DNA of 64,000 bases from Chondrosia reniformis. Lineage: Eukaryota > Porifera > Demospongiae > Chondrillida > Chondrillidae. Numbering within the stretch: the stretch's first letter is position 1; each line of letters starts with the position of its first letter. Position numbers and translations under genes: made by a program. Below are positions 19,521 to 64,000 of this stretch, one piece after another. The DNA is taken from contig OX359195.1 in the NCBI GenBank assembly GCA_947172415.1, positions 3,071,001-3,135,000 of the forward strand, given 5' to 3'. The notes under the pieces were generated by a model that was not told the DNA's origin, did not search any database, and was given only the letters and a program-made list of their open reading frames with translations.

Positions 19521-19744
19521 GATATATGAATTGTACTTATAGATCAGGATCTATGGTTATATATCATGATATTTAGCATACATCCTGATCTATGATTTAA
19601 CTTCACCTTTGGAATTGCATGAGATCACTGAATGTCATAAGTCATAACAGTGATACTTGTGCCTAAATTTAGAGACTATATGTATATATAGATTTTGGTC
19701 ATAGGAGAAGTACAGCTATTTAACTAGCACATGTTTAGTGAATA

Positions 19745-21413: not shown

Positions 21414-21540
21414 GTATCACTGTTATGACTTATGACATTTAGTGATCTCATGCAATTCCAAAGGAGAAGTTAAATCATAGATCAGGATGTATGCTATATA
21501 TCATGATATATAACCATAGATCCTGATCTATAAGTACAAT

Positions 21541-21660
21541 TCATATATCATGATGTATGATTATAGATCGTGATGTATGGCTATAGATCGTGATGTATGG
21601 TTATAGATCGTGATGTATGATTATAGATCGTGATGTATGATTATAGATCGTGATCTATCA
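21541..21660. repeat. 20-bp tandem array in right TIR
   Basis: About five units of gatcgtgatgtatg(a/g)ttata, the reverse complement of the left-TIR units. Same role and interpretation as the left array. Confidence 0.85.
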
Positions 21661-31719: not shown

Positions 31720-31936
31720 TACAGTATGTAAACTAGGCTGGAAACCTTCATAGGCACAACCTTTCACAACCTTTGTGAACCCCAAGTTTACAATTTAGTA
31801 TTGATTAAGGTTTTTAACAGTTAGCAACCTGTTTTAAAGAGAATTATGAATATCAATAACACTTTGCGACTAATTGCACTTCCTAATGAAAACTATGAAT
31901 ATTATTATTAATTAATATTTATAGCTACCAATCAAT
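31720..31936 (-). repeat. Detached half of an older repeat
   Basis: In reverse orientation this matches 54440-54720: shared phrases include catagttttcatta, aactttggggttcac-type and aaggttgt segments. It ends with agctaccaatcaat (31923-31936), the target duplication of the LINE that follows. Its other half lies at 55990-56767, 24 kb away in the present order. Confidence 0.75.
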
Positions 31937-31943
31937 TTTTTTA

Positions 31944-32205
31944 GGAAGCTAAGAGAGTAGTGAGAATTGCACAGAATGAGGAATGGGTGGAGCTCGGTAG
32001 GTCTCTGCAAAATGATTTCCAAAACAACCAACGCAGATTCTGGAGTAGAGTGAAAGCACCTAAGAGAGGCAGTCAGGAGGTTCAAAAGATTTGTGATGAT
32101 AATGGTCAAGTGATTGAAGATGTAGAAGGGGTCATGGAGAGATGGAAGGACTACTTTGCAGGGTTATTACAGGGAGCTCAGAAGGAAGAGGAGGGTAATA
32201 AGGAT
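31944..32205 (+). mobile_element. RTE-like LINE, 5' part (interrupted by 5.2-kb transposon)
   Basis: Open from 31944 (EAKRVVRIAQNEEWVELGRS, then FWSRVKAPKRGSQEVQKI and MERWKDYFAGLLQG). This is the stretch between endonuclease and reverse transcriptase in RTE/CR1-type LINEs. The copy is 5'-truncated at 31944, as is usual for LINEs, and directly preceded by a target duplication. At 32205 the frame stops at the terminal repeat of the 5.2-kb transposon. The frame resumes without loss at 58342 on the reverse strand. Confidence 0.8.
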
Positions 32206-37435: not shown

Positions 37436-38870
37436 TTCCTCAACCTTCATCTGCTTATTCATCCATTAAACACTCTTAGTCTACTCTTGACAAGTAGCCC
37501 TCGAGCATTCACTCAGGAGTGACATTCAAACACTCCATTTATCACATTCCTCGCTCTTCCCACTCTGGAAGCCAATTATCCAACCCTTTCCGTTTACTTG
37601 CCGAGAAGGCCCAGGCATATTGACAGTTCCTGGTCCTTTCAACGCGGAACTCACTTTTTGGAAAATGCCGCCTTCAATCCTAAACAAATGACTCTCGACA
37701 CACTGTCAAGTAGTTCAGTTGTAATTAGGACAGTAAGGCACCTCATTGTCTAGTTTTATTTAACCGGAGTCTTTCGTACAACTGTCTCAAACTTGAGAGA
37801 ACTGCAATTGCAATCATTGCACCACAAGCTAATGACTATTCTGCTTCAAAATTGGCATTGGTTCTCGAGTGACTCTCATTTGATTAGATCCTTCATAGAT
37901 TAGATCCTTTGTAACTTTAGACCGAAACAACCCAGTCATTCACTGGTATTCAATCGATCTGCTTGGCCAAAGCCTTCTCGAATGTGAAACACAAATCTCG
38001 TCAAATCTCGAATATCATTTCAAATTCACCACAAGCCCTAGCTACAGAAGACTATGGCATCTGAATCGCCATGGGAAACAGTTCAAACTTATGCCCTCGT
38101 TCAGCCCTGAGGCCAATCGTACCAACCATCTATTCTTCCCAGGCTTTTTGAGATTCCATCAATTGTGCCCGAGCCCCCTTTGATCAAGGAGAGCTTACTA
38201 GAAAATCTGGAAATTCACTCCAATTGTCCTCGCTTCTATGTACAATCGTAAGATCGTCATTTCCAATTGGAAAAAGCTCAAGGAACTTTCATCCCAACTT
38301 TCATCCCAACTTTCAGTCACTCTCGAGGCTCATGAAACAAACTTGCCAAGCTTCGGGATTCAAACTATAGCTTGGTCCAAGCCCCTGGGCTATGAGCTTT
38401 GGAATTTACGTGGAATCTGCAATTGCATTCCTTCGGTCACATGGTCACTACTAGTCACTTCTGTATCACTATTCGGCAATTCTCTGATTACCCCCATAAG
38501 GCTTAGGAGCATTCATACGAGGCCAACTGCCCTTCACCGGACTTTCTCGAATCGTAAATTTGGCCCGTAGGATTTCGCTCACCATGCTCCCCCTTATAGT
38601 AGGCAAGAACACAGTGGCGCGCAAGGGGATGACAAGAAGACGCTAAAGTCTCAACTGCATCTCGATATATTTTGACCAACTAAGTCTTTTCCAGTTACTT
38701 TTGCCTTTCAAAAGGAAGCCAATTTCATAACTAACAAGATTCAATTTTGAATTACTTTAAAAGTGTTGTGATAATTGAGTAAATAACACATTTATTAACA
38801 CGTCGAAGACAAGTATTTCAAGTTTAAAAACTCGAGGGGCTGCTGCCCCCCCCCGAATTAACTCGAACTA
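37436..38870. other. Gene-free block; candidate displaced rDNA spacer
   Basis: This block starts at the right end of transposon copy 1 and has a different texture from the rest: less A+T, many tctcg/ctttc/ccaag steps, a doublet of tttcatcccaac at about 38288-38310, and no long ORF. It ends near a C9 run (about 38845). If the inversion inferred between the two 5.2-kb copies is undone, this block comes to lie directly upstream of 63570-63720 and 18S. That would make it external or intergenic rDNA spacer. This is an inference; no rRNA sequence is visible in it. Confidence 0.4.
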
Positions 38871-38904
38871 CTTGGCCGAATCTTTGGTATTTAATATATA
38901 TATT

Positions 38905-39045
38905 CGTAATACTAACGATTGAGGATGCTTAATTGTCCTGAACATTATAAATAACGATGGAAAAGCTTCGTTAACTAAAGCTTCCTGAACTCCGCCATTT
39001 GCAAAAACGATGTATTGACGTATAAATTAAGTGTTACAATAGTTG
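38905..39045. repeat. Dispersed repeat (relative at 16515-16655)
   Basis: Second copy of the short repeat found in the kinase-Kelch intron, same orientation, about 85 percent alike by eye. Confidence 0.6.
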
Positions 39046-39112
39046 CGTATGAACTCGTATTATACATATATCGACGAATAAAATAAGTGTTATAACAGCT
39101 GCGTGTGTATAT

Positions 39113-40130
39113 ATACAGTACAAGTTACAATATACTAAGGTAATCTAATATAATATAAATAAATAATATAATATAAATAATTCATATGGCTCCAGGAAAG
39201 GACCTAGCAACAGAATGGGCATAGTATCATATAGATTAGGGTATAAAACTCATTTTTAATTTTTCATTTCGGTCTCGGTTTGGTAGAAAACGGAGGACAA
39301 AGTCTGCATATAAGATGCCATAGGACTATAGAAAGGCTATAGAAAATTTATATTGAAAGCATGTGTTATATTAGTAAAAATTATCAATTTGTCAGATAAC
39401 TGTGAAACCGACATATATCATGGTACATGTGTTTGACAAACGTCTGGCCTAGTTTTCCTTAATTAAAGTTGCAAAATAATCAAGACATAATGAAGAATGC
39501 AAGTTTATGATTGTACAATTTGGTGATGTATTGTGATGTTTCTCTAGTGCGTCACCAACACTCTCATATGTCGCTCCGTACATATTTAATGGATTATCAT
39601 GTAACGTTGCGAAAACGTCACCCCCTTGTTGTAAAGAAGATCATCCTTTCAAGAATGGCTATGACAGGTCGACGCTCTCCTACGAGAAGGAGCTAGCGAA
39701 TAGGCGAGTTGTAGCGAAGGTTAGATAAAGCGTTTTTGTATATGTCCCCGTCAAGTTTGAGGCAGAATTGTTCCTATATTGATGCGAAAGACTGAATTCG
39801 TTTGGTCGACCGAATTACTTTGGTAATTTATTCTCTGTCTTCTCTTTTTACGTTATCTGTTAATATTTTTACTTGTCCATGTGTAGGTATATATATATAT
39901 ATACTGGCAATATTAAAATTACAATCAATTACTGCACAGTACAAGTTACAAATTTAAGAGGGCCAAGTAACTATACAATATTAAAATTACAATCAAGGAC
40001 TAGCTACACATGCAGTGCAAGTTACAAATTTAAAGAGATCAAAGTGACCCCTAGGATAATCAATAGATATAATTTTAAGCATATGTCACAATTTATCTAC
40101 ACTATACACAGTGCAAGTTGTAATTCTTGC
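39113..40130. repeat. 1.2-kb repeat family, copy B
   Basis: Collinear with copy A (26041-27250) but lacks the second arm of its foldback. It is followed by three short diverged direct units of the acagtgcaagttaca motif (39935-40130). Confidence 0.65.
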
Positions 40131-40437
40131 AAATGATAATCACAGTCCAACACTTTAGTCACACTGCTGCGCGCAGCTGTAGACTTAATTGAAATACTCA
40201 ACTTCTGCATGGAGGATACAGAACTATAAAGTCAAGGGACATAAAGGCTGGGGCTTTTAATTTATTTCATGAACAATGTCCCTTGTGTGCAAGTTACCAA
40301 ATTGTCTCTCACCCTCTTGTTTATGTGAATGCATGAAAGCAAGCAACGGCACTCCTAGCTCGCACTCCAGGCAAGTCAAATCTGCAGTGATTATTGGTTT
40401 CGACCCCCTGCATGAGACTGGAATTTTTGCTGATAAT

Positions 40438-41190
40438 GGCATGCAGATGCATCATCTTCAGTCTATACTAAGGTGTGAAAAGGTAATTGGAAGGCCATGC
40501 GTTTATTTAACCTTATATGATCTGTAGACTACTACTCTGTATGCAGCAGTTGAGAATTTCAGTGTGGCTAAAGTCTTGTAGCGTTTAATATACCTGATTG
40601 TGATTATTTTGGGAGTCATTTGCATCCGTATTATATTATATACCTCAGTGTGATTATCTTGGGAGTCACTTGCATCTGTGTATAAATTTGTAACTTGCAC
40701 TGTGTAGTACTTGATTGTGTTTAAACATGCATAATATATAACACTCATTATTATAATATAAATAAATAATATAATTAAATAATTCATATGGCTCCAAGAA
40801 AGGATCTAGAAACAAAATGGCCATATCATCATAAAGTTTAGGGTATAAAACTCGTTTTAAATTAAGGGATTTCTTATTTAAGCCTCTGTTTGTTAGTAAA
40901 AGGAGGACAAAGTCTGTGTATAAAGGGCCATAGGACTATAGAAAACCTATGGGAAATTTATATGCAAACCAAGTGTTATATTAATAAAAAATTTCAATTT
41001 GTCAGATAACTGGGAAATGAACATATATCATGGTACATGTGCATAGGAAACGTTTGGCAAAGTTTTGCTTAATTAAATGAGCAAAATAATCAAAATATAA
41101 TGAAGAATTCAAAGTTACGATTGCGCAAGCTGGTGATGTATTATGATGTTCTTCTAATGCGTCACCAACACAATATGTATTCATGAAGTT
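40438..41190. repeat. 1.2-kb repeat family, copy C, rearranged
   Basis: 40438-40745 matches copy A 26935-27245 in reverse orientation; 40745-41190 matches copy A 26095-26490 in direct orientation. So the two ends of the family meet head to head here. This points to an inverted-repeat end structure or to a rearranged copy. Confidence 0.65.
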
Positions 41191-41410
41191 CACTATGAGT
41201 ACACAATGTGCCTTATATGGTGTAGGAAATGTTCAATAAACAAAGCCATGTTAGGTTCACTTTTTGAAGTACACGACACTGTTTTGTCGACTTAAGGACA
41301 ATTAGTGATGTTCTTTCTTGAGTGAAGCTGTATGTGCTCGGCGAAAGTCAAACACTGATCAATGAAAACAGAATACATTATGGATCTAAGTGAATTATGC
41401 TGAAGCTTAG

Positions 41411-41958
41411 CCATAGTTTTAATTACATATTGGGGGGTAAAGCCCAAAACAGGCCCTCCACTTCCAACTATCACGCCATAGTTTTAATTGAATGTCGGTG
41501 GGTACAGCCCGAAACAGGCCCTCCACTTCCAACTGTCACACCATAGTTTTAATTGAATGTCGGTGGGTACAGCCCGTAACAGGCCCTCCACTTCCAACTC
41601 TCACACCATACTTTTAATTGAATGTCGGCGGGTACAGCCCGAAACAGGCCCTCCACTTCCAACTATCACACCATAGTTTTAATCGAATGCTGGTGGGTAC
41701 AGCCCGAAACAGGCTTTCCACTTCCAACTTTCACGCCATAGTTTTAATTACATGTCAGTGGGTACAGCCCGAAACAGGCACTCCACTTCCAATGGTCACA
41801 CCATAGTTTTAAGTACATGTTGGTGGGTACAGCCCGAAACAGGCCCTCCACTTCCAACTGTCACACCATAGTTTTAGTTGAATGTTAGTGGGTACAGCCC
41901 GATACAGGTCCCCTACTTCCAACGTCACACCATAGTTTAAATCGAATTTTGGTGGGTA
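41411..41958. repeat. 65-bp minisatellite, left part
   Basis: More than eight units of catagttttaattgaatgtc followed by ggtgggtacagcccgaaaca and ggccctccacttccaact. The array is broken at 41958 by the CACTA-like element and resumes at 53134 with cagcccgaaacag-type units. Confidence 0.9.
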
Positions 41959-42489
41959 TAGTGCGTTTCAGTCAAAGTTTCCACTTTTTGAATTTTTTAC
42001 CTCTTAAGCTTTGATAAGCTTAAATTCAAATTTGGTAAGGTCATTTTCTTTGAAACTTGGACAGGTTGTAGCTAAGTCATGTAGTTTTGGAATAGCGAGA
42101 TAATAGTGTTACCATGGTAACCATGGGCTTGCGTAATTGCCCCCAATTTCCTAATAAGGTAAAGAGATGCTTTTCTTCAATCTTCTCCTAGGTTGTTTGA
42201 AATTTTTTTACTTTGTTTAATGTAACATATATTTAAGATAATTTTTAAACTTTATAAAGAGGCTTTTGTAATATATTTCTTTATTTTTGAGAAATATCAG
42301 TTGAAAATTTTTAATGGTACATATATTCATTTTCTATCTAGTTTGTGGGGAAACCTTCTAGGAAGTAAATTTTGCTAACATTCTAAACCAGAATGAATTA
42401 TCTAAATTTGTAAAGAGGATTTTTTCCATAAATGGTTCTAGGAAGGAGTTATTAACTTTTATATTTTACCTAATTTGCATATTTGAAAC

Positions 42490-42670
42490 CACAATGTAAA
42501 CAGCACAGGGGAAAACGCGTGTACAAACGGGTATTCACGAATCCCGTGACACATACGGGTTACGGGATTCACACGGGTTGCCGCATGCAACGGAAGAAGA
42601 CGCTACCGTGTAAATCGTTGTACACGTTAGTCAACGGACTCCGTGCATGCATGCGTTCAAGGTGAGAAGT
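42490..42670. promoter_or_regulatory. Left subterminal repeat zone (ACGGGT motifs)
   Basis: Clustered short motifs ACGGGT / CCCGTG in both orientations (acgggtattcacg, cccgtgacac, acgggttacggg, acacgggttgcc, gctaccgtg). CACTA/EnSpm elements are known to carry many short subterminal binding sites for their TnpA-type protein. It lies just before the transposase start codon, so it may double as promoter. Confidence 0.6.
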
Positions 42671-42717
42671 GATCCCTGTGCACGTGGTCGATCGTTAGCC
42701 GGCGGACTCGCACCGAG

Positions 42718-45700
42718 ATGTTGCCAGCGAAGAAGAGGCTACTGGACACAGATGGCCGAGTATTTTGCCCTCACTGCGAGCAGTCTGTGGCGAAGAGGAC
42801 CTTTTGGCTGCACAAGCGAACCTATTTCAATTCGACCACGAAGGAGTGGCAGAAGGAGCAGGATCTGAAACGGGGTACAAGCGACGCGAATGACGATTCT
42901 TTTGTTATTGACACGCGAGATGGTGACCAGTCTTTATTAGAAGCTGACAATGGTGGTTCTAAAGGCCATCCTGGCAGTGATCATGATCTAGCAGCAAATT
43001 CGCAATCGGTGAGTGAGAATTCAAAGCAAGTATGTAACTGACTAGCTATAAATGGTTTAAATACAGTATAGCTAGACAGTTGAGGGTTGTATTAGACGTA
43101 GATTTTGTACTGTACACTACCAGATCACTTATAATACTTTATTTAGCTCTAGAGCTTCAATTCACAGCTATATCATTTTTATTTCAACACTTCCACCTAT
43201 ATGGCAAGTGCCTTCGCTGTTGTATCAATTGTTATATCAGTTAGCTACCTACAAATTTGGTTACCATGATCCAAGCAAGGGAGACTCTGGGTCAGTGGAT
43301 GGTGTCCTAGTATACGTAGTTAGAGCCCCAGGAGTGATAAATAGTGATAAATAACAAATCCTATCCTGGATATAACTGCTATAAGGTAACAGTCACCATC
43401 GATTGGCATATGTGGGAATTAGCACAAAAGTTGGGTCCACGGGAGAGAAATGTACACCTGTGGTGTGACAATCCCTACCTCTAACATTAATTTGGTCTCA
43501 TGGTGTGGGAGAGCAATTGGTACATGGTTGTGAAGAGCTCTGTTGCCTATAGTGTGTATATACCTCAGCACTTTTAAGTTGTACCTATTTTGATCCAAAA
43601 ATAATAAGCAGCTGCAGCACATTTTACTGGTTTGGTCTGAAGCAGCCTAAATTTTAGCCAGATAGACTAATAAGTCACAAGACTGAGGTATATGCAAAGA
43701 TCATGCAGGTCTATAAATGACTACATGGTGCAGCTATAAATAATGCACTGATTGAAATTTCTGGCCTATAACTGCAGCATTTCTGTAGCTTACACCTTCA
43801 GTTCATTCTCCATCCATTTTTTGTTATATGTTTAGGTATTGGATACCAGCACTAGCTCGGACTCTATGCCATCAGACTCTGAATCTGATATTGACATCTT
43901 GAGCAGTCAAGAATCGGATGTGGATTGTCCAGATGTTCACACTGATGGGGAGTCCTCCACATTGAAATTCCCCAGGCAATTTTTGCAATTATTCACATTC
44001 ATCTCTATTTGGCAAGCTGCTTTCAAAATTTCAACTTCAGCCATTTGTACATTGCTGAAGTTCCTGAAATGGTTCTGTTTTGCAATAGGTACTGCTTTCA
44101 ATTGCGCACCTCTGAGGAATTTGTCCAATGCAATGCCTGTCACTAAGTCTACTTTACGGAAGATTTTAGCTTTAGATGGGCCAGACTTTTTGGAGTATGT
44201 TGTGTGTCCAAAATGTGACTCCTTATATACTCCTGAGCACTGCAAGAGAGGAGGCAAATTTGTTGCGACTGCATGCTCTTACAAGGCCTATCCCAATCAT
44301 CCCCAAGAAAGAAGAAGGAATGAGTGTGGAACACAGTTGATGCGATTGGTTCGAATGAAGAAGGGCACCGTGTATAGACCCATTAAACTATTTCCTCATC
44401 AGTCAATCAAGCAGGCTATAACAAAATTAGCCCAGAGGCCTGGTTTTGTGCAGTCCTGTGAGCTGTGGCGTAAAAGAAGTAACTTTCAAAGCTTTGGCTA
44501 CATGTGTGATGTGTATGATGGGCAAATTTGGAAAGATTATAGTGATTTCTTGAGTGCGCCTTTTAATTACTTGCTAACTCTGAATGTGGACTGGTTTTGC
44601 ACCTTTGAACATGGTCGGTATTCAGTGGGTGCCATATATCTTATTATTCAAAATCTTCCACGATCAATTCGAAACCATCCTGATAATATTATTTTGGTTG
44701 GAATTATTCCAGGGCCTAGTGAGCCTCACCTAACCTTGAATAGCTACATGGCACCAGTGATAGAGGAATTGCATTGTGCATGGACAGAGGGTTTCAGAAT
44801 ACCGGCACGCCAGAAAGACGGTACAGAACTGACAGTAACTATTCGCTTGGCTCTCACATGCATTGCTTGTGACATCCCTGCTACTCGTAAGATTTGTGGT
44901 TTTCTTGGGCACAGAGCAACATTAGGATGCAACAAGTGTTACACAGCTTTTGCACACTTGACTGACAGTGACGGCTCAAAATGGACAAACTGGGCTGGAT
45001 TTGATCGGACACAGTGGGTGTTGCGTGCAAATCGAGAACACCGTGAACGATGTGACAAAATAATCAGAATCTTCAATGACCATTGCACAAAGTCCAGCAT
45101 TCAAGATGCTGAGACACTGTACGGACTGAGATATTCTGTACTGTTAGATTTGCCATATTTCGACCCAATCAGGTACCCAATTGTGGACCCCATGCATAAT
45201 TTATATTTGGGCACAGGGAAGCACATGATTGAAGTTTTATTGAAGCGGATGGACAAGGACAGTGCACTGGACAGACAAAAACTGGATAAAATTGAATCAT
45301 TAGTGACTCAGTTTGTTGTTCCGGAAGGTATTGGCCGACTACCATCTAGAATTACTTGTCACTTTGGTGGATTCACTGCCGACCAGTGGAGGAACTGGAT
45401 TACCATTTATTCTCCTGTGTTGTTGTGGCAGATGATAGATGATCAACAATGGAATTGCTGGATGATGTTTGTGCAAGCAGTAAAAGTGATCAGTGGCCGT
45501 ATTCTTTCTCTTGCAGAAGTCACGAAGGCTGATGACCTGATTGTAAAATTCTGTCAGGCCTTTCAGCAGCTTTATGGGGACAAAGATTGCACACCAAACA
45601 TGCACATGCACCTGCACTTGATTCAGAGTTTGACAGACTATGGGCCGGCACATGGTTTTTGGTTGTATGCTTTTGAACGATACAATGGCATATTAGGATC

Positions 45701-46496
45701 CTACCACACCAATAATATTAGAGTAGAAAGTCAAATGATGAGGAGGTTTTTGGAAAGCCAGTCTACGAGCATCAGTATGGAAACACTAGAATTAATGGAC
45801 AATGAGTTTCGTGAAGTATTGCCCAAGCACTGTTCATCTGAAGCAGTGAATTCACCCTTAGGGAATGTCAACGCTATCAAGCTTCTGACAGCAGCATCAG
45901 GGCCTATTAACAACTTTGAGATAGAGATTCATCGTGTGTTTTATAGTATGGTTTCCTCTATTGGACCCTTCAAAGAGCATGTCTTGACAGCTTTGGAAGT
46001 TGAGAGTATGGTTGAGGTGCTGCAAAACATTTTTGAGCCTGGAGTCACATTGAAATCTAAGTTTTCTCTAAAGTTTGGAAAACTGATGATAGGAGATGAT
46101 CTAATTGGATCTGCTTTACCTAACTGCAGTTTAAATTCATCTGTTATCCTTCCTTATTGGCCAGGCAGCCTGCTGAGTGGAGATGTGGACTTTAATGTAG
46201 GCAAAGTGCAGTATTATTTAGATGTAACTTTTACACATACGCAAACCACAGCAGAAGTAAGACAAATTTTTGCTTTTGTGCATTGGCTGAGACCACACCA
46301 GCGGAGGGATGCTTTCCCCAAGGATGTAGCTATCATATGTGAAACAACAGCCTACCCTATGTGCAAGTGGAGCTATTTACCTGTTCATCGTATTCTGAAG
46401 CGCTGTGCACATATTACACTTCCTCTCAAACTCTCAGAGCATGTAACTGAAACTGTTACAATTGCATGTCCTATTTCCCTACGTTTAAATCTTTAA
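42718..46496 (+). CDS. CACTA/EnSpm (Tnp2-type) transposase
   Basis: Two exons, 42718-43029 and 43836-46496, joined in phase 0 at GT-AG borders, 990 aa. Residues 1-25 contain a small zinc-finger-like motif (FCPHCEQSVAKRTFWLHKRT). An acidic Ser/Asp-rich linker follows, then a second Cys cluster (VVCPKCDSLYTPEHC). The transposase domain has LTLNVDWFCTFEHGRYSVGA, LVGIIPGPSEPH and YPIVDPMHNLYLGTGKHM, the hallmark blocks of Transposase_21/Tnp2. The protein should bind and cut the element ends. An AATAAA signal lies at 46655-46660. No stop or frameshift; the upstream motif zone at 42490-42670 probably contains the promoter. Confidence 0.9.
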
Positions 46497-46831
46497 GACG
46501 TATACATGCAGTGTGTATTTCAAGACTGTATATTATTGGCTATACTTTATCCTGCAATTGTGCATGATCTCTGTGCATGCATTGTACAAATTTTATTGTA
46601 TTTTGACAGTTAATAATCATGCATGTGTATGTGTCTGCGCATGACTGTTGTTCAAATAAATATAAATACACAGAATTTGAAGTTGCATAGGATTACATAG
46701 ACATCAATGCATGATCAGTGATTGCATATGTAAATTCATTCAGTTTATATAAAGTAATGATACAGTAACTTAAATGTAGCTACATGCATAATTTGTGAAT
46801 CATACCAGTATAACAATAAAAATGAATTAAA

Positions 46832-49800
46832 TCAAGCCTTCTTACTTAGTGCTAATTTGACCATCAGACCTCCTCTCGAACTACCTTCATGCACACTGTT
46901 CCTCCAAAACTGCCTAACTGATAGTTCCCTTTTAAGCGACTTAATCTCTACCTTCTTGCATGCAACTACCAAATCCTCACATCTACTTCTATACGTTTTA
47001 GCTTTCTGAACAGCTTCTAGTTCTTTGTCCTTAAGTTCTTGAATGTATGTCTCCATGGCATATCTCTCAACTGGCGGCAGTTTTTCCATTGCTCTATTTG
47101 CAGGCTCTTTGAAACAACACTTATCAATCTTGGATAGAATAGGATAATTAAGTATTGATTCATATCCCAATCCCAGTACAGACTGTTCTGCTTTCTTTTT
47201 CTGCCACTGCCTTATAATTTCCACATTTGTCTCCATCTGCGATTTCACCCAAGTCTCACGACGAGGGAAGCCATCATCTTTAGGAGTTTTCTCAAGTGGT
47301 GGATGGTTTGGGTCATTCAAAAATTCCATTGGAGGCACAATCCCATACATTCCTTTAAGTAGTTTACTGTTTGCACTGATGTCGCTAGTACACACGTTGC
47401 CTGCAGCTGCTGTGTGTGAAACTGACGCATTGGTAGGATCCTCTTCATGTGATGCTATGAACATAGCATTAAAATCAGTTTTGGTAAGCAAGTTTGTGTA
47501 TCATTACTTTATCATTCATGCATATATATAATTATGTAAAAATGTGGTACAGTAACAACTCACTATAGGATAAGGGACTTGACAAATCTTCAGACATAGA
47601 TAACAGGGTGGAATTTGATTGTGGGGGGGTAACTACTGGTACTAACGCAGCAGAATTATCACCACATGTGGATTTACCATCCCGTCTTCTACTTCGTACT
47701 ATCTCATTGTAGCGCTTCCTTCTTGCCTGAAGAGAACTAGTGGATCTCTTCTGTTTGGATGATCTCATACTGTTATGGACTGTCCTGTATGCATGCAGCA
47801 ATGACATGACATAATACAAGATTATTTTCAGATTGAAATCAGTTGGGGAGCGAATAAATTAGTTGCTAAATCCCGCCAATGTATTGGGTAGAATGAGTTT
47901 TATAGCAGCTCACAGGGACGTGACCACAGTAAAATGACAGATTTGTGTACAAGTGCTGGCGGATACAGTCCACTTGGAAATGGACTCTTCAACACCACAG
48001 TAAAAATGACACGCATACAAAAGTGGCGGATACAGTCCACTTGAAAATGGACTCTTCAACACCACAGTAAAAATGACACGCATACAAAAGTGGCGGATAC
48101 AGTCCACTTGAAAATGGACTCTTCAACACCACAGTAAAAATGACACGCATACAAAAGTGGCGGATACAGTCCACTTGAAAATGGACTCTTCAACACCACA
48201 GTAAAAATGACACGCATACAAAAGTGGCGGATACAGTCCACTTGGAAATGGACTCTTCAACACCACAGTAAAAATGACACGCATACAAAAGTGGCGGATA
48301 CAGTCCACTTGAAAATGGACTCTTCAACACCACAGTAAAAATGACACGCATACAAAAGTGGCGGATACAGTCCACTTGGAAATGGACTCTTCAACACCAC
48401 AGTAAAAATGACACGCATACAAAAGTGGCGGATACAGTCCACTTGAAAATGGACTCTTCAACACCACAGTAAAATGACACGCATACAAAAGTGGCGGATA
48501 CAGTCCACTTGAAAATGGACTCTTCAACACCACAGTAAAAATGACACGCATACAAAAGTGGCGGATACAGTCCACTTGGAAATGGACTCTTCAACACCAC
48601 AGCATACGACTACAAGATGCATGTACCATGTAATATACAGCTAATGATCCGTACCAGATGGGCTCAGCGCTCAGTCCGCTTCTGGGGCGAGACCGCGTGC
48701 CGTATATATATCGTACAAGTAAATAAAAAACATTTACAAAAATGATGTTAGAAGTAGGAATGGTATAGTGTTCACTAATACATCTGCAAAAAGTATCGAA
48801 ACAAGACACTGATTATATGATAAGGCTAATCATACAGAAGTTGCATATATACTGAAATTTAAGTAAATTAACCATACACTTCTGTGTTTGGGCGCACCAT
48901 TCCTACTTGAGGTTTAAGTGCGCCCAAACACAGAAGTGTATGGTTAATGGTTTGTTTCGATACTTTTTGCAGATGTATTAGTGAACACTACCATTCCTAC
49001 TTCTAACATCATTTTTGTAAATGTTTTTTTATTTACTTGTATTCCCCCTTTTTTCCTCTTAATATTACTAGTTTTAAATTTGAAAGTTTTCTTGGCGAAG
49101 ATCTCAAAATAACGTCTTAGACAAGAGAAATATGCCGAAAACCATGATCTCTTAATTAAAAAATGGCGTCCGAGAAGACCACAATTTTCGCTCTTCACAA
49201 TTAACATGCTTATTGTAGAGCGCATTCAGATTTAGGGCTGTCTATTCCCTAGTTCCGAAATATTTATGACGATTTATAACTAGTACGTGCCCGCATAAGT
49301 TCGCATATTAGCGCTAGTCTATTCAATAAAAGAAGAAGAAGAAGAAAAAATGAATTTTGGAAGTGGGTCTATTCCTAGTTAGCCGCTTTTTGAACGCTAT
49401 AGAGCGTGTAGAGCGTCGAAACATGTTTTGGCATTTAGGAAAGCGTGCATTAATCGCTGCAAATAACCGAATATAACCGAAAATTGCTTCGTTGGCGATT
49501 TATGAGGTGTTGATTGCTAATACATTGGATAGGGCGGCCATTTTTTTTCGGGCCATTCCTACTTACGTACTCTCTGATATATAGGTGGTCTGAAACTGTT
49601 AATTCGGTTACAGAGAAAATCCATACGAAGGACAGGCGTTGCAGGTAGCTAGTAATGCTACTCTCCGCATGAGCCCTTCCAGTAAGACACGACTTGCGTC
49701 CGTTGTAGTTCAGAGCAGGATGGTGAAACGGAGAGCAATCAAGATTCGGTCTTCGCAGATTATCTGTGTATAGTCAGTTTGTTTCCTTTCCAACCCGACT

Positions 49801-52792
49801 TGAAACTGTGCTATATAGTGTGAACAGGGTACACGGAACCATGCATGTTACGGTAGCTATAGTTAGCGCTACTAACCATACGCTTCCTGGCATTCTTAAC
49901 GTCGCTCAAGGCTCACAAACTCTTGACTTCACCTTCTCATGTAACTGCTGGCCAAGCGCGCCAAAACAGACGATCACCTCATGAGATCAGAAAGCAGATA
50001 TCGATATCGTATATTTAGTATTTAGGACCTATAGCTACTTGTGCATTTCCGTAAAGGAAGCCTTATAATTAGCTACGTACGCAGCTGCAGAGTGAAGGAG
50101 TTTTTGGCGGGATCATTCGAGGTAGAGAATGCAAGCGAACGGATCAAACTGCTTTTATCCCGGCCCCCGGGCGAATCGAGCTCTGGCCTTCACTCCAGTC
50201 GGCCGCGATCGTGTGCGTCCTATCACCAGTGACGAAACTCCAAACTCCATCACTGCAATTCACCAAAAGTTGGACTTGGTGCTTGCTGGCAGTCTAGAGC
50301 AAACGGCTGCTATTGAAGAACTGAGAAAGGAGAATGCTGTGCTGAAGGACAAACTTCAGGAGATGAATGGGGAGATGCAGGGCTTGAAAGCAGCTAATTG
50401 TCAATCTGTTGGGACTCGTGTCCACTTGAAAATTCCACCAAATGTCTCTGTAAGTTGCCTGTGTTCTTGCTATATATGAACAGCATGCAGTGTATAACCT
50501 AATTCATTTTTTGCTAGGCATCTGTGAGGGCCTTGCACTCGAGCTACAGACCAGACAATCAATTTCATCCTTCGGAAAAGTAGGGAGCTAGAATGGATAA
50601 CCTGCAGAAAATGATTGCTTGTTGTTTCAATGCAGCCTTTCTTTTGCAATAGGTATGGTGCAGAATGTAATCAAGCAGTGAAGAACTGCCTCGTCACTGA
50701 CTTACGGACAAAGCATACTTCCATTCAGGAAGTAGTGTCTAAAAGTAAGTAGCTACTATCCAGCGGAGACATAGCTATGTGCAAGAGTATGTGAACCACC
50801 CTCACCACATGCATGAGTTGCGTTTGTGATTGAATGCTTGTGTGCCGCTGTGTGCGCAATTGCACAGCATTGGTTTTGATTTGACACTTTATACAAATTT
50901 GATTTGATGCACATTGCAGGAGCAGTGTATCGCTATTATGAAAGTAGACGGAGGATATTCAATGATGCCAAGCCATCTAGGAAGGATAAAGTGGCAAACA
51001 ACAACAGGAAGCGAAGAAACAGACAGGCTCAGAAAAATGTAGGTTCAAACAACTGTCAGGCATACACCTACTACTTGATAACACTGTTTCTGCTTTATCC
51101 CTGTTGTAGCTATTTGCCAGAAGAAGCAAGTATGTACGAAGGGAGGAAATGGACAAGTGGCAGGAGCTCTCATATCAGCATATGACGGAGGAGAGTGGAG
51201 GGGAGAGTGCTGAAGAAATTACATGCCATCCATTGCCATGGAGATCTAATGGTGAGTACAAATGCAAATGTGTGTGCGTGCACATTACTATACCATATCA
51301 CTGCCACTTTACTTATAATTTTACAGCAGCAACAAAGTTTATCAAAAAGCTGGACAACCGGCACAAGAAAGATATTTTAAAGCGGGGCAGCAGCAACCTC
51401 CAAGCAAAGAATAGAGTCTTGGGCAGTCCATCACAGCTGCCCCAAGTCCCTGGACCAGAGTGGGCTGTGGTCCATGAACCAGCTGCAGTTGCCAACCAGC
51501 AGCCTGCATCTACAAGGAGGGAAATGGAAAGGGATGGTCACCATACCAGTAGCAGCGACAGTGACAGTGATTTTAACATTGCTGACCTGATTTAGCTATT
51601 TGAAAGTGAAACTCTTGTGACACTATAGCTATATTGCGTAATGTATAACTTTAGATATTTATATTATTACATTTTTACCTTTAATTGGTGCAACCTAAGG
51701 TTACCATTATGCAATTGGCCTTACCTAGTAGAAGCTGCAAAACGATACGAAGTACGGCTGAATAGCGTGCTTCCATCCTCCATGTTCACGGGAAGATGCC
51801 TGCCCGTCTTCCACGAGGAACGGTAGCATTCACGGCAGAGCGAACGGTCATATTAACGGTATGTCCCGTGCAATAATGTGCAAATACGGTAGTTCGCGTA
51901 ACCCGTGCATAAGTCACTCGGGAACCCGTTGAACATCCGTTTGATTCAAATTCACGGGTATCGTTCACAAGCGAAACGGTACCCGTATTCTGCGTACGTT
52001 TTCGCTGTGCAGATCGCTCTGATATGCCTACTAAAGATTCTGTCTGCCTACAAGCTTGTACTGTACCCTTACCCTCCTTCCTTAGGGCATCTACTACTCT
52101 TAACCCTACCATTTTGTACTTCACCAGCCTGATCCCTTACCCAATCCTTATAATTTACTAATGCCTCCTCAGTTTTGAATTGAAAGCTGGAAATAACCAA
52201 GTAATTAAAATTTAATAATGGTTGAAATTACCTTTGAATACCTTTAGAACGCAAACAGAGCACATTTAGTCTAATTATAAGACTTTTAGGTATGCTCTAA
52301 GTGTGTAAATAGGTAAGAAAGGCCAAATAATTGCTATACGTTAATGTTTATAAACAAACATTGCATAAGATTCAGTTAAAGTAGAAATCTAAACGAACAA
52401 AGCTTTAGTTAAACTTTAGATACTTAAATAAATGCTCTAGTTTAAAGCATAATACGTTTCTCTATCCCAGTATTCAATATGAAAACATACCCAACATCGC
52501 CATCTTCATCTTCACTAGGATTTTCAGCTTCTGACTGATTTGTACCAGTGATCGCTTCAATCATTTCTTCTTCTTCTTCTGTCTCTTCATTGGCAGAGTA
52601 TTGATCATTTAGGCTTTCACTGACGCTGACTTGTGGCGAATTGACTACTAATAAAAGTTCTTTGGGAAGTTGCCGTGAAGAAGACTGAACATTTTCATCG
52701 ACTTCTTCTTCATTGGGCTTGAATCTTTTCAGATTTCGCAACCTATCTATTTTATTCTTCATAATACTAACTATTGACTTCCTTTTAGGCAT
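46832..52792 (-). CDS. CACTA element accessory protein on reverse strand, three exons
   Basis: Exons 52792-52491, 47784-47564 and 47454-46832 join with matching phases (2, then 1) at GT-AG borders to give 381 aa. It begins MPKRKSIVSIMKNKIDRLRN and has an acidic Glu-rich stretch, then a basic segment (SLQARRKRYNEIVRSRRRD), a Pro/Asp segment (NDPNHPPLEKTP) and a helical C-terminal half (ERYAMETYIQELKDKELEAV) that may be a coiled coil. I recognise no named domain. The first intron is 4.7 kb and contains the whole gene at 50129-51595 on the other strand, plus the 67-bp minisatellite and a MITE. The join over this intron is inferred from phase and splice sites only; exons 2 and 3 alone, starting at Met 47768, also make an open 275-aa frame. 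Confidence 0.6.
47945..48602. repeat. 67-bp minisatellite, about ten units
   Basis: Units of aagtggcggatacagtccac, ttgaaaatggactcttcaac, accacagtaaaaatgacacg and catacaa, 67 bp. Each unit has a small hairpin (gtcca...tggac). Two variants alternate irregularly (cttggaaatgg and cttgaaaatgg). The unit is not a multiple of three, yet the reverse strand stays open in all three registers, giving chains of overlapping 61-codon frames that are repeat artefacts, not genes. It lies in the long intron of the reverse-strand accessory gene. Confidence 0.95.
48712..49570. repeat. MITE with long foldback (relative of 14335-14765)
   Basis: 48712-48812 returns inverted at 48950-49045 (tacaagtaaataaaaaacat, gatgttagaagtaggaatgg), and an inner hairpin has gggcgcacc/gcgcccaaacacagaag arms at about 48868-48945. 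The part 49330-49570 matches 14530-14750. It is inserted within the CACTA element, so it is younger than that element. Confidence 0.75.
49571..50128. other. Presumed promoter region of the second + strand gene
   Basis: No ORF of note. GC content rises towards 50128 (a cccggcccccgggcgaatcg segment follows the start). This region probably holds the promoter and 5' UTR of the gene at 50129. Confidence 0.3.
50129..51595 (+). CDS. CACTA element second protein, six exons
   Basis: Exons 50129-50449, 50518-50579, 50653-50744, 50920-51038, 51110-51251 and 51327-51595. All introns are 68-175 bp, have GT-AG borders and agree in phase; the sum is 1005 bases, 334 aa. The N-terminal part has a coiled coil (IEELRKENAVLKDKLQEMNG, about residues 60-85). 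The middle has YRYYESRRRIFNDAKPSRKD and a basic run, then LFARRSKYVRREEMDKW. The C terminus is Ser/Asp-rich and ends NIADLI. The domain family is not recognised. By position and content (basic centre, coiled coil) it could be the DNA-binding TnpA-type partner of the transposase; that is an inference. It lies wholly within an intron of the reverse-strand gene. Confidence 0.7.
51795..52010. promoter_or_regulatory. Right subterminal repeat zone (ACGGT/ACCCGT motifs)
   Basis: A dense cluster of ACGGT, ACCCGT and CCCGT words in both orientations (gaacggtagcattcacgg, taacggtatgtcccgtg, gtaacccgtgcataag, cgaaacggtacccgtatt). It mirrors the left zone at 42490-42670 in vocabulary but not as a simple copy. 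This is the expected look of CACTA subterminal binding regions. Confidence 0.6.
52011..52490. other. Intron start of reverse-strand accessory gene
   Basis: AT-rich DNA between the right subterminal zone and the first exon of the reverse-strand gene. No separate feature. Confidence 0.3.
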
Positions 52793-53131
52793 AATAAAGC
52801 CTTAGAATAATCTACTGAAAGAACAAACGAATAAAATGAATCTCTTCGCGGCGTTGGGCGTTGTTATCTATAAGTAGGACGGACCTATACGGATTCTGTG
52901 GTTAAACGTCATAGGAAACCATAGTAACGCATCCTGATGTCACAGTTAACAAGCCATATGATTGGCTTATATCGAAACTGTGCTTTAAAATGATTGTTTT
53001 AAAAATCTAATGTCAGATTCGGAATCTACAGTATGAAAAACCTACATGTACATATTTATTTCATAGCGGTTCCGTACTGTATAATATTTATACAGGTTTT
53101 AAAAAGTGGAAGCTTTGACTGAAATGCACTA

Positions 53132-53410
53132 TACTGCCCGAAACAGGCCCGAAAGAGGCCTTCTACTTCCAACTTTCACACCACAGTTTTAATCGAATGT
53201 TAGTGGGTACAGCCTGAAACAGGCTCTCCATGCCAGCACCCTCATTTTAATTTTGAAAGTCTCACCGGAAAGGTACAGCCCGAAACTGGCCCTTCACATC
53301 AGCACACTCATTTTAATTTTAAAAGTCTCACTGGACAAGTGTAGCCTGAAACAGGCTCTTCACATCAGCACACTCATTTTAATTTTAAAAGTCTCACCGG
53401 AAAGGTACAG
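53132..53410. repeat. 65-bp minisatellite, right part, plus related 63-bp units
   Basis: The first one and a half units match the array left of the CACTA element (cccgaaacaggcc, ccacagttttaatcgaatg). They pass into three shorter, related units with cacatcagcacactcatttt and aaaagtctcaccgg. The two unit types share the acagcccgaaac core. Confidence 0.85.
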
Positions 53411-53879
53411 GTTCATTATCAATTCGTCAGTATTGACGGAGTTTACTTAGTAGTAGTCGAAATAACGGCTTCCTGGAAGTTATATAGTTAAACCTGAACA
53501 ATATACGTGCCTTTAACATGCAAGCGTACACTTTTGTTCAACATACAATGAATATTACAGTATATGGTGGCTACAGGGTTAACATATTGAAACTAACTGA
53601 GTACAAGTGTACTGCATACGCTTATTGCATCAGTTCGGTGACGTTCGGCAATTCTACGAAGACTTAGTAAGCCAAGGTTAACATGATCATACACAGAGAA
53701 GACCGCCTAGTCCCACCAAAATCTCGTGAAGGTGTGGTCAATTCTATGAATGCAATTGTAACGTATATGTTTTGGAGGGAACTCGCCAAGGTCGATGTGA
53801 TGTACCATTCACCAAGGAAACGGTTCTTTTGACTATTACTTATACGTAAGTCTGCAAAATCCTTATACCTTGTAGAAGT
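53411..53879. other. Gene-free spacer
   Basis: No supported feature. The segment tctgcaaaatccttata (about 53850) recurs at about 54726, so repeat debris extends into it. Confidence 0.3.
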
Positions 53880-54720
53880 AACTCACCAATTGTCTTGTTT
53901 TATTAGGCACCATAAGCTGTTAAAGTTGGCGCAGTAAACGCTTCCTTTCAGCCTAATCGAAAACAGCTTTAGTGAAGGGTATAGTGCCAGTAAGGAGACT
54001 TATAATGATACTTGTATTTAATTTACAACAACTGATTCTATTATATAGTGTGAATTGAATGTGGAATGTCTTCAAGGAAGACATTTAAATGCTCTAAGTA
54101 ATCAAAGTAAGATAACATTACATTTCAATATTTTTGAGACTGAGTTTGGGCTTGGGATAAAAATCTGTTTTCTATTTATGCGGCATTTAACAGAAGATCC
54201 TGGGTGTCTAGTGGCAATAGACACATTACCATCATTGGTCAGTAAGTATTTAGGAAAGAAGATATATATATTTATATAATTTCCACATAACTTCAGATTC
54301 AACCAACATGCCATGGATCGGAATTCATGGCTACATACCTATCATGATAGACTTTGGAAGAATAAACAGTTTATTTTAATCAACTTTTGTATATTTATTT
54401 GTATATTGAGAAATTTCCTGATTTAATTTTAATGAATAAATATTCATTGGAAGCAATGAATATTAATAATAATGCTCATAAGCTATCAATATTAATTAAT
54501 AGAAATATTCATAGTTTTCATTAGCAAGTGCAATTAGTGGCAAAGTGTTAGTGATATTTATAATTCTCTTTGTAAACAGGTTGTAAGCCTTGAAAACTTT
54601 TGACAATGGGTAAGTTTTCTATCAATACTAAATCGTAAACTTGGGGTTTACAAAGGTTGTGAACTCATTGTTTATGAAGGTTTACAGCCTAGTTTACAGA
54701 TTGCATTTTTTGCTGTGCAT
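53880..54720 (+). repeat. Older repeat, uninterrupted copy
   Basis: 53900-54440 matches 56005-56750 in direct orientation (gttaaagttggcgcagtaaa, gaagggtatagtgccagtaa, aacagaagatcctgg). 54440-54720 matches 31936-31720 in reverse orientation. So this copy joins, without a break, two segments that elsewhere in the window are 24 kb apart on either side of LINE pieces. A small open block (RHLTEDPGCLVAIDTLPSL) is conserved in both copies and may be an exon relic. Confidence 0.8.
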
Positions 54721-55505
54721 AAGTCTGCAAAATCCTTATACTTCATAGAAGTAACTCATCAATTGTCTTCGCACAGGTGGCATATATATGACTGATCTGC
54801 GTGTTTTCACGTTTTTTAATAAACACTTTTAAAAGCAAGTTTCATTCTAGAAGAAACGATTTGCTACCTTAAACTGGTATGCATCAAAGCGCTGATTTAA
54901 ATGTCAGCGAAATCTAAATTTGAGGGAGATGCAACAACCAATATTGAAGATATAAAGTGTCAAAAAGGGCCGATTTTAAAATTCTCAGACTCTATGTGCT
55001 TAGTCTAGGAAAAAGCTAGAACTAAGTTCTATATTTCATTTAAAAGGTTACAATGTATGGAGAAATAAACTTAAGAAGTCTGTTTCGATTCGTCCATCCG
55101 CTGAGAAGAAAACTGTGAAAATACACTATGCTATTTAATCTTTCATATCTTGGGAAATAAAGCTCAGACGTATACGGACTTCTTAATTCTTACTAAATGA
55201 GACTCACTGAATCCATTGAAGCTGACCACATGACTATGAGGATCATCTGGCAATTTACCTTCACTTATGCAATAGAGGTCATTTCTCAACATTTAAATCA
55301 TATTTATTAGCAAATAAGTATATTCATGGGATGATGTACACATATGAAACGCAAACGGTGAAATTTTATAGCCGGATGTTAATATTGCGTTGTGTAACTT
55401 GGATATCATATGCATGTATACGTTGACACAAGTGGCCGAGGATCGTGTAAGGTATTATTCACACTAAGGATCACCAATTTTCGTCTAAAATAGTAATTAC
55501 TGAGA
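54721..55505. other. Gene-free spacer
   Basis: Unassigned AT-rich DNA without a convincing ORF, repeat or RNA gene. Confidence 0.3.
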
Positions 55506-55510
55506 AGATT

Positions 55511-55620
55511 ATGCCCCCCCCCAAAAAAAACAAGAGGAATATCAGCCGCTAATCATATTGCTCTGAAATTCAACTGCGGCTTTGCAAGAGTTGCGGTATA
55601 CAAATTATTCGTTAACAAAA
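55511..55620 (+). pseudogene. Exon remnant related to the 5.2-kb element gene
   Basis: The stretch ALKFNCGFARVAV (55560-55600) matches LLQFNCGFARCAV in the first coding exon of the 5.2-kb element. Upstream an ATG is followed by C9 and A8 runs; with one C fewer the frame from this ATG would run into the match. Stops or intron follow at about 55620. It is probably the start of a diverged relative of that gene, broken in a homopolymer. Confidence 0.45.
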
Positions 55621-55989
55621 GGTGTGTAAAACTAAGTACTCGACGATAGCTAGAGATATGAATCATGTTATAGCTACTATGCAATGTATTACTAGAGCCC
55701 CTGAAAAGCCGTTTCACTATTATATTAGACATTATTTATATAATACGATGCGTACAAAGTGAGACGATTAGATAAGACATGATACGAAGTAAGATGATTA
55801 TATATACATTATGCGAATCAATTAAGCCAAATGATGGCTGCTGTGTTAAGTCTATATATGTAGCTATAAACTGTAACCGCTAACACTAATTAACACATTC
55901 ACTCTAACGTTTAAAAAACGAAAATTCTTTAAATTTTAACGCTTATTACGTGATGATTGCTATAAGGCAGCCTATCCCTAAGGAATAGC

Positions 55990-56767
55990 CATAAAGTACC
56001 ATGTGTTTTATTAGGCACCATAATCTGTTAAAGTTGGCGCAGTAAAAGCTTCCTTTCAGCCTAATAAAAAACAGCTTTGGTGAAGGGTATAGTGCCAGTA
56101 AGGAGACTTAAAATGATAGTTGCATTTTATTTACAACAACTAATTCTATTATATAGTATCAATTCAATGTGGAATGTCTTAGTAGGAAGAAGGTGTAAGT
56201 AATCAAAGTAAGATAACATTACATTTCAATATTTTTGAGACTGAGTTTGGGCTTGGTATGAAAAATATGTTTTCTATTTTTGCAGCATTTAACAGAAGAT
56301 CCTGGATGTCTAGTGGCAATAGACACATTATCATTATTGATCAGTAAGTCCAGCATACAATTTAATTGAGTACTTTTGCTTGGTTTCAATAGCTGAAATT
56401 GGTCTTTGCAACTATTAAGATCCTTATGAAGACACAGAGACTAATCTTCACAAATGTTTTGAACAGTGCAATCAATCCCTTACAATACTATACATTCAGA
56501 TACATGCTGACTATCAAAGAGACATATTGCAGTCTATAACAGCCATACTTTAATGTGTGCTTTTCTTTGGACTGTGCAACTGCCACAAATTAAGTTTTAA
56601 CTTAAACAAAATTATATACTTGTATAATTCCCACATTTCTTCAACATGCCATGGACCGGAATTCATGGCTACATGCCTATCATTAACTGCCAAACAGTTT
56701 ATTTTAATCACCTTTTGTATATTTAATGGCTGATTAAATTTTAATGAATAAATATTGATTGGTAGCT
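55990..56767 (+). repeat. Older repeat, copy split by the LINE
   Basis: Collinear with 53900-54440 and ends at attgattggtagct (56754-56767), the reverse complement of the LINE's 5' target duplication. Its continuation is the inverted block at 31720-31936. Confidence 0.8.
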
Positions 56768-58342
56768 CATCATCATCATCATCATTCAATAATGGCAAAA
56801 TCTCCTATGCAGGAGGTAGCCTGATATACATAGGGTTGTAGCATTGCGTGTCTAAAGCATTCATGTTCCTTAGTCAATATGTTAACTATAAATGAGTCAT
56901 TTATTTAAAATTATCTGTCCACCGCTTCTTTGGTCTTCCTCTAGGTCTCTTTCCTGTCATTTCTTCTTCATACACTTGCTTCACCAATCGGTCTGTATTC
57001 ATTTCCTCCATCTTCACCTTCCATCTTCTTTGCTTCTCCTTCACCATATCTACTACTGCTTCCTGTCCAAGTGATCTCCTCACATCTTCATTTCTAACTC
57101 TGTCCAGCCTTGACACACCTTCCACTCTCCTTAAAAACATCATTTCAGATGCCTGTAACTTGCTTTCATGTCTTCTCTGCATGGTCCAGGTCTCGCAGCC
57201 ATAAATGAGGGTGGGCACCACCATTGCATTGAATACCCTCAACTTAGTTTTCTTCAGTAACTCTCTTCTTTCAAGCACCTCCTTCCTCATAGCACCTACC
57301 ACCTTTGCTGCTGCCCCCACGCGCTGTTCAATTTCTTCATCACATAACCCATCTGAACTGACCATTACTCCTAGGTACTTCAGCTTCTTGACAGTTTCAC
57401 TGTCTTCACCTTCTATGTTCAGGTTACAATCCTCTTCTGTCCTACTCACCATCATCACCTTTGTCTTCCCCAGGTGCATCTTCATTCCCCACTTATCCAT
57501 CACTTTCTTTATCTCACCCAAGTTTGTCTTCATATCTTCCTCCTTCTCCGTCACCATCACTATATCATCCGCAAAAAGTATCAGCTGCACGTTGGTAGTT
57601 GTTAGCTGAACCCCACCCTGTAACTTCTCCATTGTTTCTCTCATTATTCCATCCATAAACACATTAAACAGCCATGGCGACATCACACACCCCTGCCTCA
57701 CTCCTTGGGTAATGGGGAACCACCCAGACGCTTTCCCACTAGTACGCACACATGCTTGGCTCCCTAGGTACATGGACTGAATGGCTCTCAATAGGCCTCC
57801 CTGAATTCCATAACTTTCCAGCACCTGCCATAGCCTATCTCTACTGACCTTATCATATGCCTTCTCCAGATCTATGCATGCTATTACCATCTGCTTGTTC
57901 TTCTCCAACACTTTTTCACTTAGCTGCCTAATTGTAAAGATCTGATCTCCACAACCTCTTCCTCGCCTAAAACCTCCCTGCACCTCCATCACCTCACCTT
58001 CAGTTTTCCTTCTCACACGACTGTCCAAGATCCGTGCATACACCTTGCTAGGTATGCTCAGGAGGCTTATCCCTCTGTAGTTGCTGCACAGCGTCTTGCT
58101 ACCCTTCTTATGTAATGGTACAATAACAGCTTTCCTCCAATCCTTTACCACCTCTCCCTTTGTCCATGCTAACTTTATAACCCTGTGCAACCACTCAGCT
58201 ACCACCATGCCTCCTGCTTTCAACATTTCTGCATCAATTCCGCATATACCTGGGGCCTTTCCACTCTTCAGCTTTGCTATAGCTTCTACAACTTCTTCAA
58301 TATCAATGCTGTCCTCTTCATGTGTTGGGCCAGTTCTTACAT
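56754..58342 (-). mobile_element. RTE-like LINE, 3' part
   Basis: Reading the reverse strand from 58342, where the TIR of transposon copy 2 ends: reverse transcriptase coding, a short 3' UTR, then a (TGA)n-type microsatellite tail at about 56768-56787, then the 14-bp target duplication agctaccaatcaat. The same 14 bases precede the LINE 5' piece at 31923-31936. A simple-repeat tail instead of poly(A) is known for RTE and CR1 groups. Confidence 0.85.
56901..58342 (-). pseudogene. LINE reverse transcriptase, split by transposon insertion
   Basis: 480 codons open from the transposon border. The blocks are KLKSGKAPGICGIDAEMLKA, SNYRGISLLSIPSKVYARIL, QGGFRRGRGCGDQIF, ACIDLEKAYDKVSRDRLW, GVRQGCVMSPWLFNVFMDGI and the catalytic LILFADDIVMV. 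The C-terminal end has TLIYGCETWTM and GKRPRGRPKKRWTD. All catalytic Asp residues are present. The upstream half (endonuclease link) is at 31944-32205; joining ...GNKD to VRT... keeps the frame exactly once one AT duplication is removed. The clade is RTE-like by its compact size and tail; CR1 is the alternative. The endonuclease is missing because of 5' truncation, so the copy was dead on arrival. Confidence 0.9.
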
Positions 58343-63569: not shown

Positions 63570-63720
63570 AAGATTCAGCAATATGGAATGGGCTTAAAAG
63601 CCAAGAGAAAAGCCAAGCCACCTCCATCTCGTGGAGGAGGTGAGAGTAGAGGAGGTCGTCCTCCTTAAGCCGAGGGAATTTTGATCTGCAAAGAGCAGAC
63701 GTCAATGATACCAAAGCAGT
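63570..63720 (+). other. Probable 5' external transcribed spacer of rDNA
   Basis: 151 bp directly before 18S. It has strong local stems (cacctccatctcgtggaggaggtg region cut as cctcc...ggagg, and gaggaggtcgtcctcc), as expected for an ETS. It is cut off on the left by transposon copy 2. Confidence 0.65.
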
Positions 63721-64000
63721 TACCTGGTTGATCCTGCCAGTAGTCATATGCTTGTCTCAAAGATTAAGCCATGCATGTCTAAGTATGAACGTTTCTTACT
63801 GTGAAACTGTGAATGGCTCATTAAATCAGTTATAGTTTATTTGATGATGACCGCTACTTGGATAACTGTGGCAATTCTGGAGCTAATACATGCAGAAAGT
63901 CCCGACTCCTGGGAGGGACGTATTTATTAGATACAAAACCAATGTAGCTTCGGCTGGTCCCTTGGTGAGTCATGATAACTGCTCGAATCGCAGGGCCCTG
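63721..64000 (+). rRNA. 18S ribosomal RNA, 5' end (partial)
   Basis: Starts with TACCTGGTTGATCCTGCCAG, the universal 5' end of eukaryotic 18S rRNA, and continues with catatgcttgtctcaaagat, taagccatgcatgtctaagt, tggctcattaaatcag and gagctaatacatgc. The first 280 bases are in the window. Sequence details (for example the cgactcctgggagggacgta stretch) look metazoan and sponge-like. It is transcribed to the right, away from the transposon. Confidence 0.98.

Follow-up and report, generated by a model that had tools for sequence, protein, structure and literature searches.

A probable crossover inversion of 20.9 kb between two inverted copies of a DNA transposon in Chondrosia reniformis

In the stretch of DNA analysed here, a 20,907-bp interior segment (37436-58342) bounded by two transposon copies lies inverted relative to its inferred ancestral order. 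When the segment is turned back, both pairs of flanks that come together are found contiguous in paralogous places elsewhere in the same genome, four for one pair and 11 for the other, versus none of 61 loci for the order as assembled. As the flipped joins are spanned elsewhere and the as-assembled joins by no locus, the order in the window is therefore derived. This arrangement is probably the product of a real 20.9-kb inversion, brought about when two 5.2-kb copies of a single DNA transposon, lying in opposite orientations, underwent crossover.

Window and search design

The window, meaning the whole stretch of 64,000 nucleotides under analysis, corresponds to C7:3071001-3135000 in a genome assembly of 117.4 Mb in 15 contigs. 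Its letters are exclusively A, C, G and T, and therefore neither transposon copy contains an N-gap. Four queries, each consisting of one flank with the adjoining transposon end in the state found in the window, were searched against the same genome. They gave 37, 13, 20 and 35 matches, of which the best 8, 13, 20 and 20 were made into 61 loci; these overlap in part, and six of them are the window's own place. Because the queries carried the flanks in the window state, the choice of loci was not biased toward the flipped joins. Four joins were scripted after removal of the transposon and of one 2-bp duplication, two of them in the flipped order (A and B) and two as assembled (C and D). Herein, join A denotes the site within a LINE and join B an rDNA-like site ahead of the 5' end of an 18S sequence.

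Two transposon copies with exchanged flanks

Transposon copy 1 occupies 32206-37435 on the + strand and copy 2 occupies 58343-63569 on the - strand. The first-pass annotation had described them as two inverted 5.2-kb repeats about 99 percent alike, and this holds, as they align end to end on opposite strands with 99.31% identity over 5231 columns. They are separated by 31 substitutions in 5226 aligned bases (0.59%) and by five gap columns that represent two indels, and their longest identical runs measure 674, 640, 587 and 558 bp. Of the other full-length copies, those at C7:3.29 Mb and C9:3.24 Mb come nearest, with 2.8-3.2% differences. Both copies start with CTCAGGTG and end with CACCTGAG, and the sequence beginning with CTCAGGTG forms terminal inverted repeats. 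The last long coding stretch contains one premature stop in copy 1 and runs for 603 aa without a stop in copy 2.

On the + strand, copy 1 lies between ...GGAT and TTCC..., and copy 2 between ...ACAT and AAGA.... Copy 1 is flanked by AT and TT, and copy 2 by AT and AA, which in element orientation reads TT..AT. Re-inversion on paper, read off these flanks, converts AT..TT and TT..AT into AT..AT and TT..TT. The swapped flanks, and the restoration of the 2-bp duplications AT and TT by the flip, were thus as the first-pass annotation had given them, with coordinates exact to the base. Both 2-bp matches would arise by chance alone in about 1 of 256 cases (arithmetic assuming equal bases), and the main weight of the case is carried by the two joins rather than by these short matches.

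The interrupted LINE at the first breakpoint

Turning the interior around reunites two parts of one retrotransposon. The 5' part (31937-32205, + strand) ends in ...GNKD, and its bases 31943-32205 share 98-99% identity with four uninterrupted LINE copies. The 3' part (56768-58342, - strand) has an (ATG)n-like 3' end and encodes a reverse transcriptase domain, recognized by Pfam as RVT_1 (E 2.4e-41), with PDB matches to LINE-1 ORF2 and R2 chains. The reverse transcriptase domain and the target duplication identify the interrupted fragment as a non-LTR retrotransposon (LINE). The first duplication, AGCTACCAATCAAT, covers 14 bp at 31923-31936 on the + strand, and the second, at 56754-56767 on the - strand, is identical to it in reverse complement. 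The LINE therefore regains its exact 14-bp duplication upon flipping, as had been proposed.

The reading frame was likewise expected to continue from GNKD into VRTGPTHEED across the restored join, and in all four natural copies GNKD runs directly into [VA]R[TS]GPTHEED without a change of frame. Over 319 codons these copies contain no stop in two cases, and one and four stops in the others. The possibility that the LINE halves stem from different copies was also checked, and the two halves were found to share their best outside match, the single uninterrupted locus C2:3378486-3378859 (99%). Join A is spanned by four other places (C2:3.378 Mb, C2:4.186 Mb, C1:3.789 Mb and C12:2.643 Mb; eight rows, each place being fetched twice), every one over 961 columns and at 97.5-99.0%. 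The same four are the only outside matches to the 58230-58343 side, and the LINE matches taken up from the 5' side were the longer and stronger ones.

The LINE itself sits in an older dispersed repeat, for both halves of which the start is taken from the first-pass annotation. Within the left half (31720-31936), the segment 31727-31926 matches the reverse complement of 54481-54698 at 81%. The other half (55990-56767, + strand) includes the second LINE duplication and resembles the window's own copy of the repeat, with 56004-56349 matching 53896-54247 at 90% and 56642-56725 matching 54304-54397 at 84%. As had been proposed, the halves adjoin where no LINE intervenes: the junction is spanned at 54255-54698 in the window itself and in three loci elsewhere, L006-L008 (69-72%).

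The rDNA-like sequence at the second breakpoint

The outer flank of copy 2 (63570-63720, + strand) is pre-18S sequence that starts with the half-duplication AA (TT in element orientation). It leads into an 18S rRNA 5' end, belonging to a gene or to a copy of one (63721-64000, + strand), which is cut by the window end and matches Rfam RF01960 with 212.5 bits over model positions 1-281. At the opposite end of the interior, 37436-38132 (- strand) is rDNA-spacer-like sequence that is continuous with the sequence from 63570 onward in 11 other places. These places, located on C10, C13, C6, C12 and C4, span join B at 74-86% (20 rows). In total, 14 outside places match the 63570 side and 11 of the 14 span the join; at C9:1803011, C12:2099475 and C4:4967236 the matches begin about 75 bases or more past the site and are neutral on join B.

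Ten of the 11 join-B places, all except C12:4191 kb, were scanned with Rfam. Matches to 18S or 28S, many of them partial, lie near seven of these ten, and L026, L030 and L031 have no nearby rRNA match at the Rfam gathering score. Copies of the spacer and gene start on several chromosomes differ by 6-31%, and such diverged copies suggest scattered rDNA remnants. The rDNA-like setting of join B is absent from the first-pass annotation and provides an independent second test of the flip.

None of the 61 loci spans either as-assembled join, although join C is matched in part by 46 of them and join D by 33. The first-pass annotation had further proposed an order of events running from the repeat to the LINE insertion, the transposon insertion and the inversion. 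The intact 14-bp duplication, the unbroken LINE copies and the second breakpoint all support this order, in which recombination is the presumed last step.

Insertion habit and coding capacity of the element

Elsewhere in the genome, both ends of the element were recovered at three independent sites, and matched 2-bp duplications were found at 3/3. The copies at C7:3291469-3296724 and C9:3238370-3243624 are each flanked by CA..CA and, as they share flanks, were counted as one site. A further copy, at C7:2530902-2536447, has AA..AA flanks and is 76-77% identical, and another, at C1:4876710-4889026, retains AT..AT flanks around an internally rearranged (deleted and interrupted) element. Mismatched flanks are therefore not the habit of this element. 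The count excludes six single ends whose partner end was not recovered, namely the left ends at C13:2757065, C8:3711136 and C2:4544263 and the right ends at C10:3720464, C2:6746702 and C10:3944099; guessed partner regions for three of the six contained no terminus.

The element has a long coding region, and comparison of six transposon ORFs with Pfam gave no family at E 0.1. A 1183-aa relative aligns with the 603-aa stretch at 32% identity, and it matched no Pfam family and no PDB chain at E 1. The 603-aa stretch itself returned a single chance-level PDB chain (E 0.43). Among the three aligned proteins, SAP was the only Pfam match, in one of the three and at E 0.26. A search of viral contigs for relatives of the element found none.

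Origin of the inverted order

Crossover between the two copies offers a coherent route to the present arrangement. A LINE would first have inserted into the older dispersed repeat. One transposon copy would then have entered the LINE with the 2-bp duplication AT, and a second copy, oppositely oriented and some 21 kb from the first, would have inserted into rDNA-like sequence with the duplication AA/TT. Pairing of the copies, perhaps after a break made by the transposase, would have swapped their flanks and reversed the interior. Stretches of identity as long as 674 bp are ample for recombination, and crossover between inverted copies accounts for all the observations by steps known in eukaryotes. 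To our knowledge, gene conversion alone is unable to swap flanks.

The copies themselves were examined for traces of such an exchange. The first 852 alignment columns hold 10 of the copy 1-copy 2 differences in 812 positions, versus 21 in 4414 for the rest (p 0.02), and comparison with copy 1 against the outgroup gave no regional difference that would mark a recombination tract inside the copies (Fisher p 0.38). When the 31 substitutions were polarised, 10 proved derived in copy 1 and 19 in copy 2, with two unpolarised. A mosaic ancestry was considered from these polarised differences, but their scatter along the element made them uninformative on this point. Alternative (reversed-end) transposition was also considered; it predicts that the old interior ends are fused within the segment and that new duplications occur at the elements, and it was rejected because in paralogues each end of the interior continues straight into the outer flank of the other side.

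An assembler that walked from copy to copy at both transposons, the alternative named in the first-pass annotation, would yield exactly such a pattern, and the organism would then keep the ancestral order, which is the one backed by the paralogues. Such an artefact is nevertheless considered unlikely, given that an assembler could tell the copies apart by 31 substitutions and two indels, that no identical run exceeds 674 bp, and that any read of more than about 5.3 kb would reach across either copy. N is also absent from the window, and an assembly of 117.4 Mb in only 15 contigs suggests, without showing, long accurate reads. We infer that the inverted order is present in the organism rather than in the assembly alone.

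The same anatomy may also be produced by a single intramolecular replicative transposition, in which the element residing in the LINE attacks a site 21 kb off. Strand transfer followed by replication would copy the element and invert the segment between old and new copy in one step, and the target duplication would end up split between the two copies, half at each, so that the old copy would read AT..TT and the new inverted copy AT..AA on the + strand, precisely as found. This event is absent from the first-pass annotation, and flanks alone cannot separate it from crossover. It also predicts the close kinship of the copies, which differ by 0.59% as against at least 2.8% to the next two full-length copies; this closeness is explained by local hopping or conversion, and equally well by a replicative event. 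The putative transposase has no significant sequence relative in Pfam or PDB, and its chemistry thus cannot be read from known families. A replicative origin would call for an element that normally lacks simple matched insertions, but simple insertion with a matched 2-bp duplication was found at all three other independent sites with both ends recovered. Furthermore, this kind of result is characteristic of Tn3, IS6 and Mu in bacteria and is not known to be so of eukaryotic DNA transposons. Given that this element as a rule inserts in the simple, matched manner, replicative transposition is rated as very improbable, distinctly below the assembly artefact, and crossover between the inverted copies is retained as the probable origin.

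Relation to known systems and implications

Transposon-bounded inversions in which target duplications have changed places are already known. For instance, Galileo in Drosophila buzzatii reportedly mediated an inversion with such an exchange. The present locus shares with it the inverted, near-identical copies at both breakpoints, the swapped duplications and an ancestral order recovered by flipping. It differs in that the ancestral order is read here from paralogues within one genome rather than from other strains, and in that the segment measures about 21 kb, is known from a single assembly and is bounded by an element not tied to a family. Intramolecular replicative transposition of the bacterial Tn3, IS6 or Mu type likewise produces an inversion between two inverted copies with half a target duplication at each, whereas the present element has a 2-bp duplication, resides in a eukaryote and has other copies with matched duplications. 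Eukaryotic DNA transposons with 2-bp duplications include Mirage, ISL2EU and others. The element resembles them in its terminal inverted repeats, its 2-bp duplication and its long coding region, but its putative transposase and the 1183-aa relative have no significant Pfam match.

Altogether, the locus looks like a clear further example of ordinary repeat-mediated inversion. Were the replicative reading true, a eukaryote would here show replicative inversion of the Shapiro type. One genome alone can suffice to reveal how a rearranged region was ordered ancestrally, with scattered copies of the interrupted repeats serving as natural empty sites for both breakpoints, and the same signature could be used genome-wide to separate crossover from replicative inversion. 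If the inversion is real, the 5.2-kb inverted pair could go on flipping the segment between its two orientations, and the segment may be polymorphic.

Divergence and genomic relatives of the transposon copies

The two near-identical transposon copies that bound the inverted interior, copy 1 (32206-37435) and copy 2 (58343-63569), differ by 21 transversions and 10 transitions, a transversion-rich spectrum. By contrast, 88 transitions and 58 transversions separate copy 1 from the full-length copy near 3.29 Mb on the same contig, C7 (p = 0.005 against the copy 1-copy 2 spectrum), while the contrast is less clear when the C7 3.29-Mb copy is compared with that on contig C9 (50 transitions and 42 transversions, p = 0.04). 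Some of the differences between copies 1 and 2 are changes in close pairs.

The latter two full-length copies, C7:3291469-3296724 (L062) and C9:3238370-3243624 (L063), have flanks in common at 95-98%, and on one side these flanks include apparent tandem repeats. A larger block thus seems to have undergone duplication between the C7 and C9 chromosomes. More distant relatives of the putative transposase (59129-60937), about 35% identical and with long open frames (e.g., loci L082 and L083), occur on many chromosomes, with at least 84 matches listed; one relative of 1183 aa yielded no Pfam domain at E 1.

Coding content of the interior and the window

Within the inverted interior, an 886-aa open frame (43836-46493) carries a tnp2 (CACTA-like) transposase domain, and two tandem arrays are present, one of 65-bp units (41411-41958, 88% matches) and one of 67-bp units (47957-48602, 98% matches). 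No host-like gene was found among the nine interior frames scanned, out of 13 of at least 110 codons. Across the 19 scanned window frames that belong to neither the transposon nor the LINE, the only host-like domains were those of adjoining protein kinase and kelch-repeat coding stretches (15474-18266). A 394-aa frame (20235-21416) with an integrase core domain (rva_4, E 6.7e-74) lies between two inverted repeats, at 19412-19673 and at 21397-21658, which overlap with arrays of 20-bp tandem units; frame and repeats together are perhaps a small separate transposon.

Dispersed rDNA-like sequence

At the second breakpoint, rDNA-like sequence (63570-64000 and 37436-38132) has matching stretches at many places on several chromosomes (loci L023-L034 and L043-L059). 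These are 69-94% similar to their window counterpart and contain spacer, the beginning of 18S, or both; some also include pieces of 28S or 5.8S. Together these stretches suggest dispersed copies of decayed rDNA.
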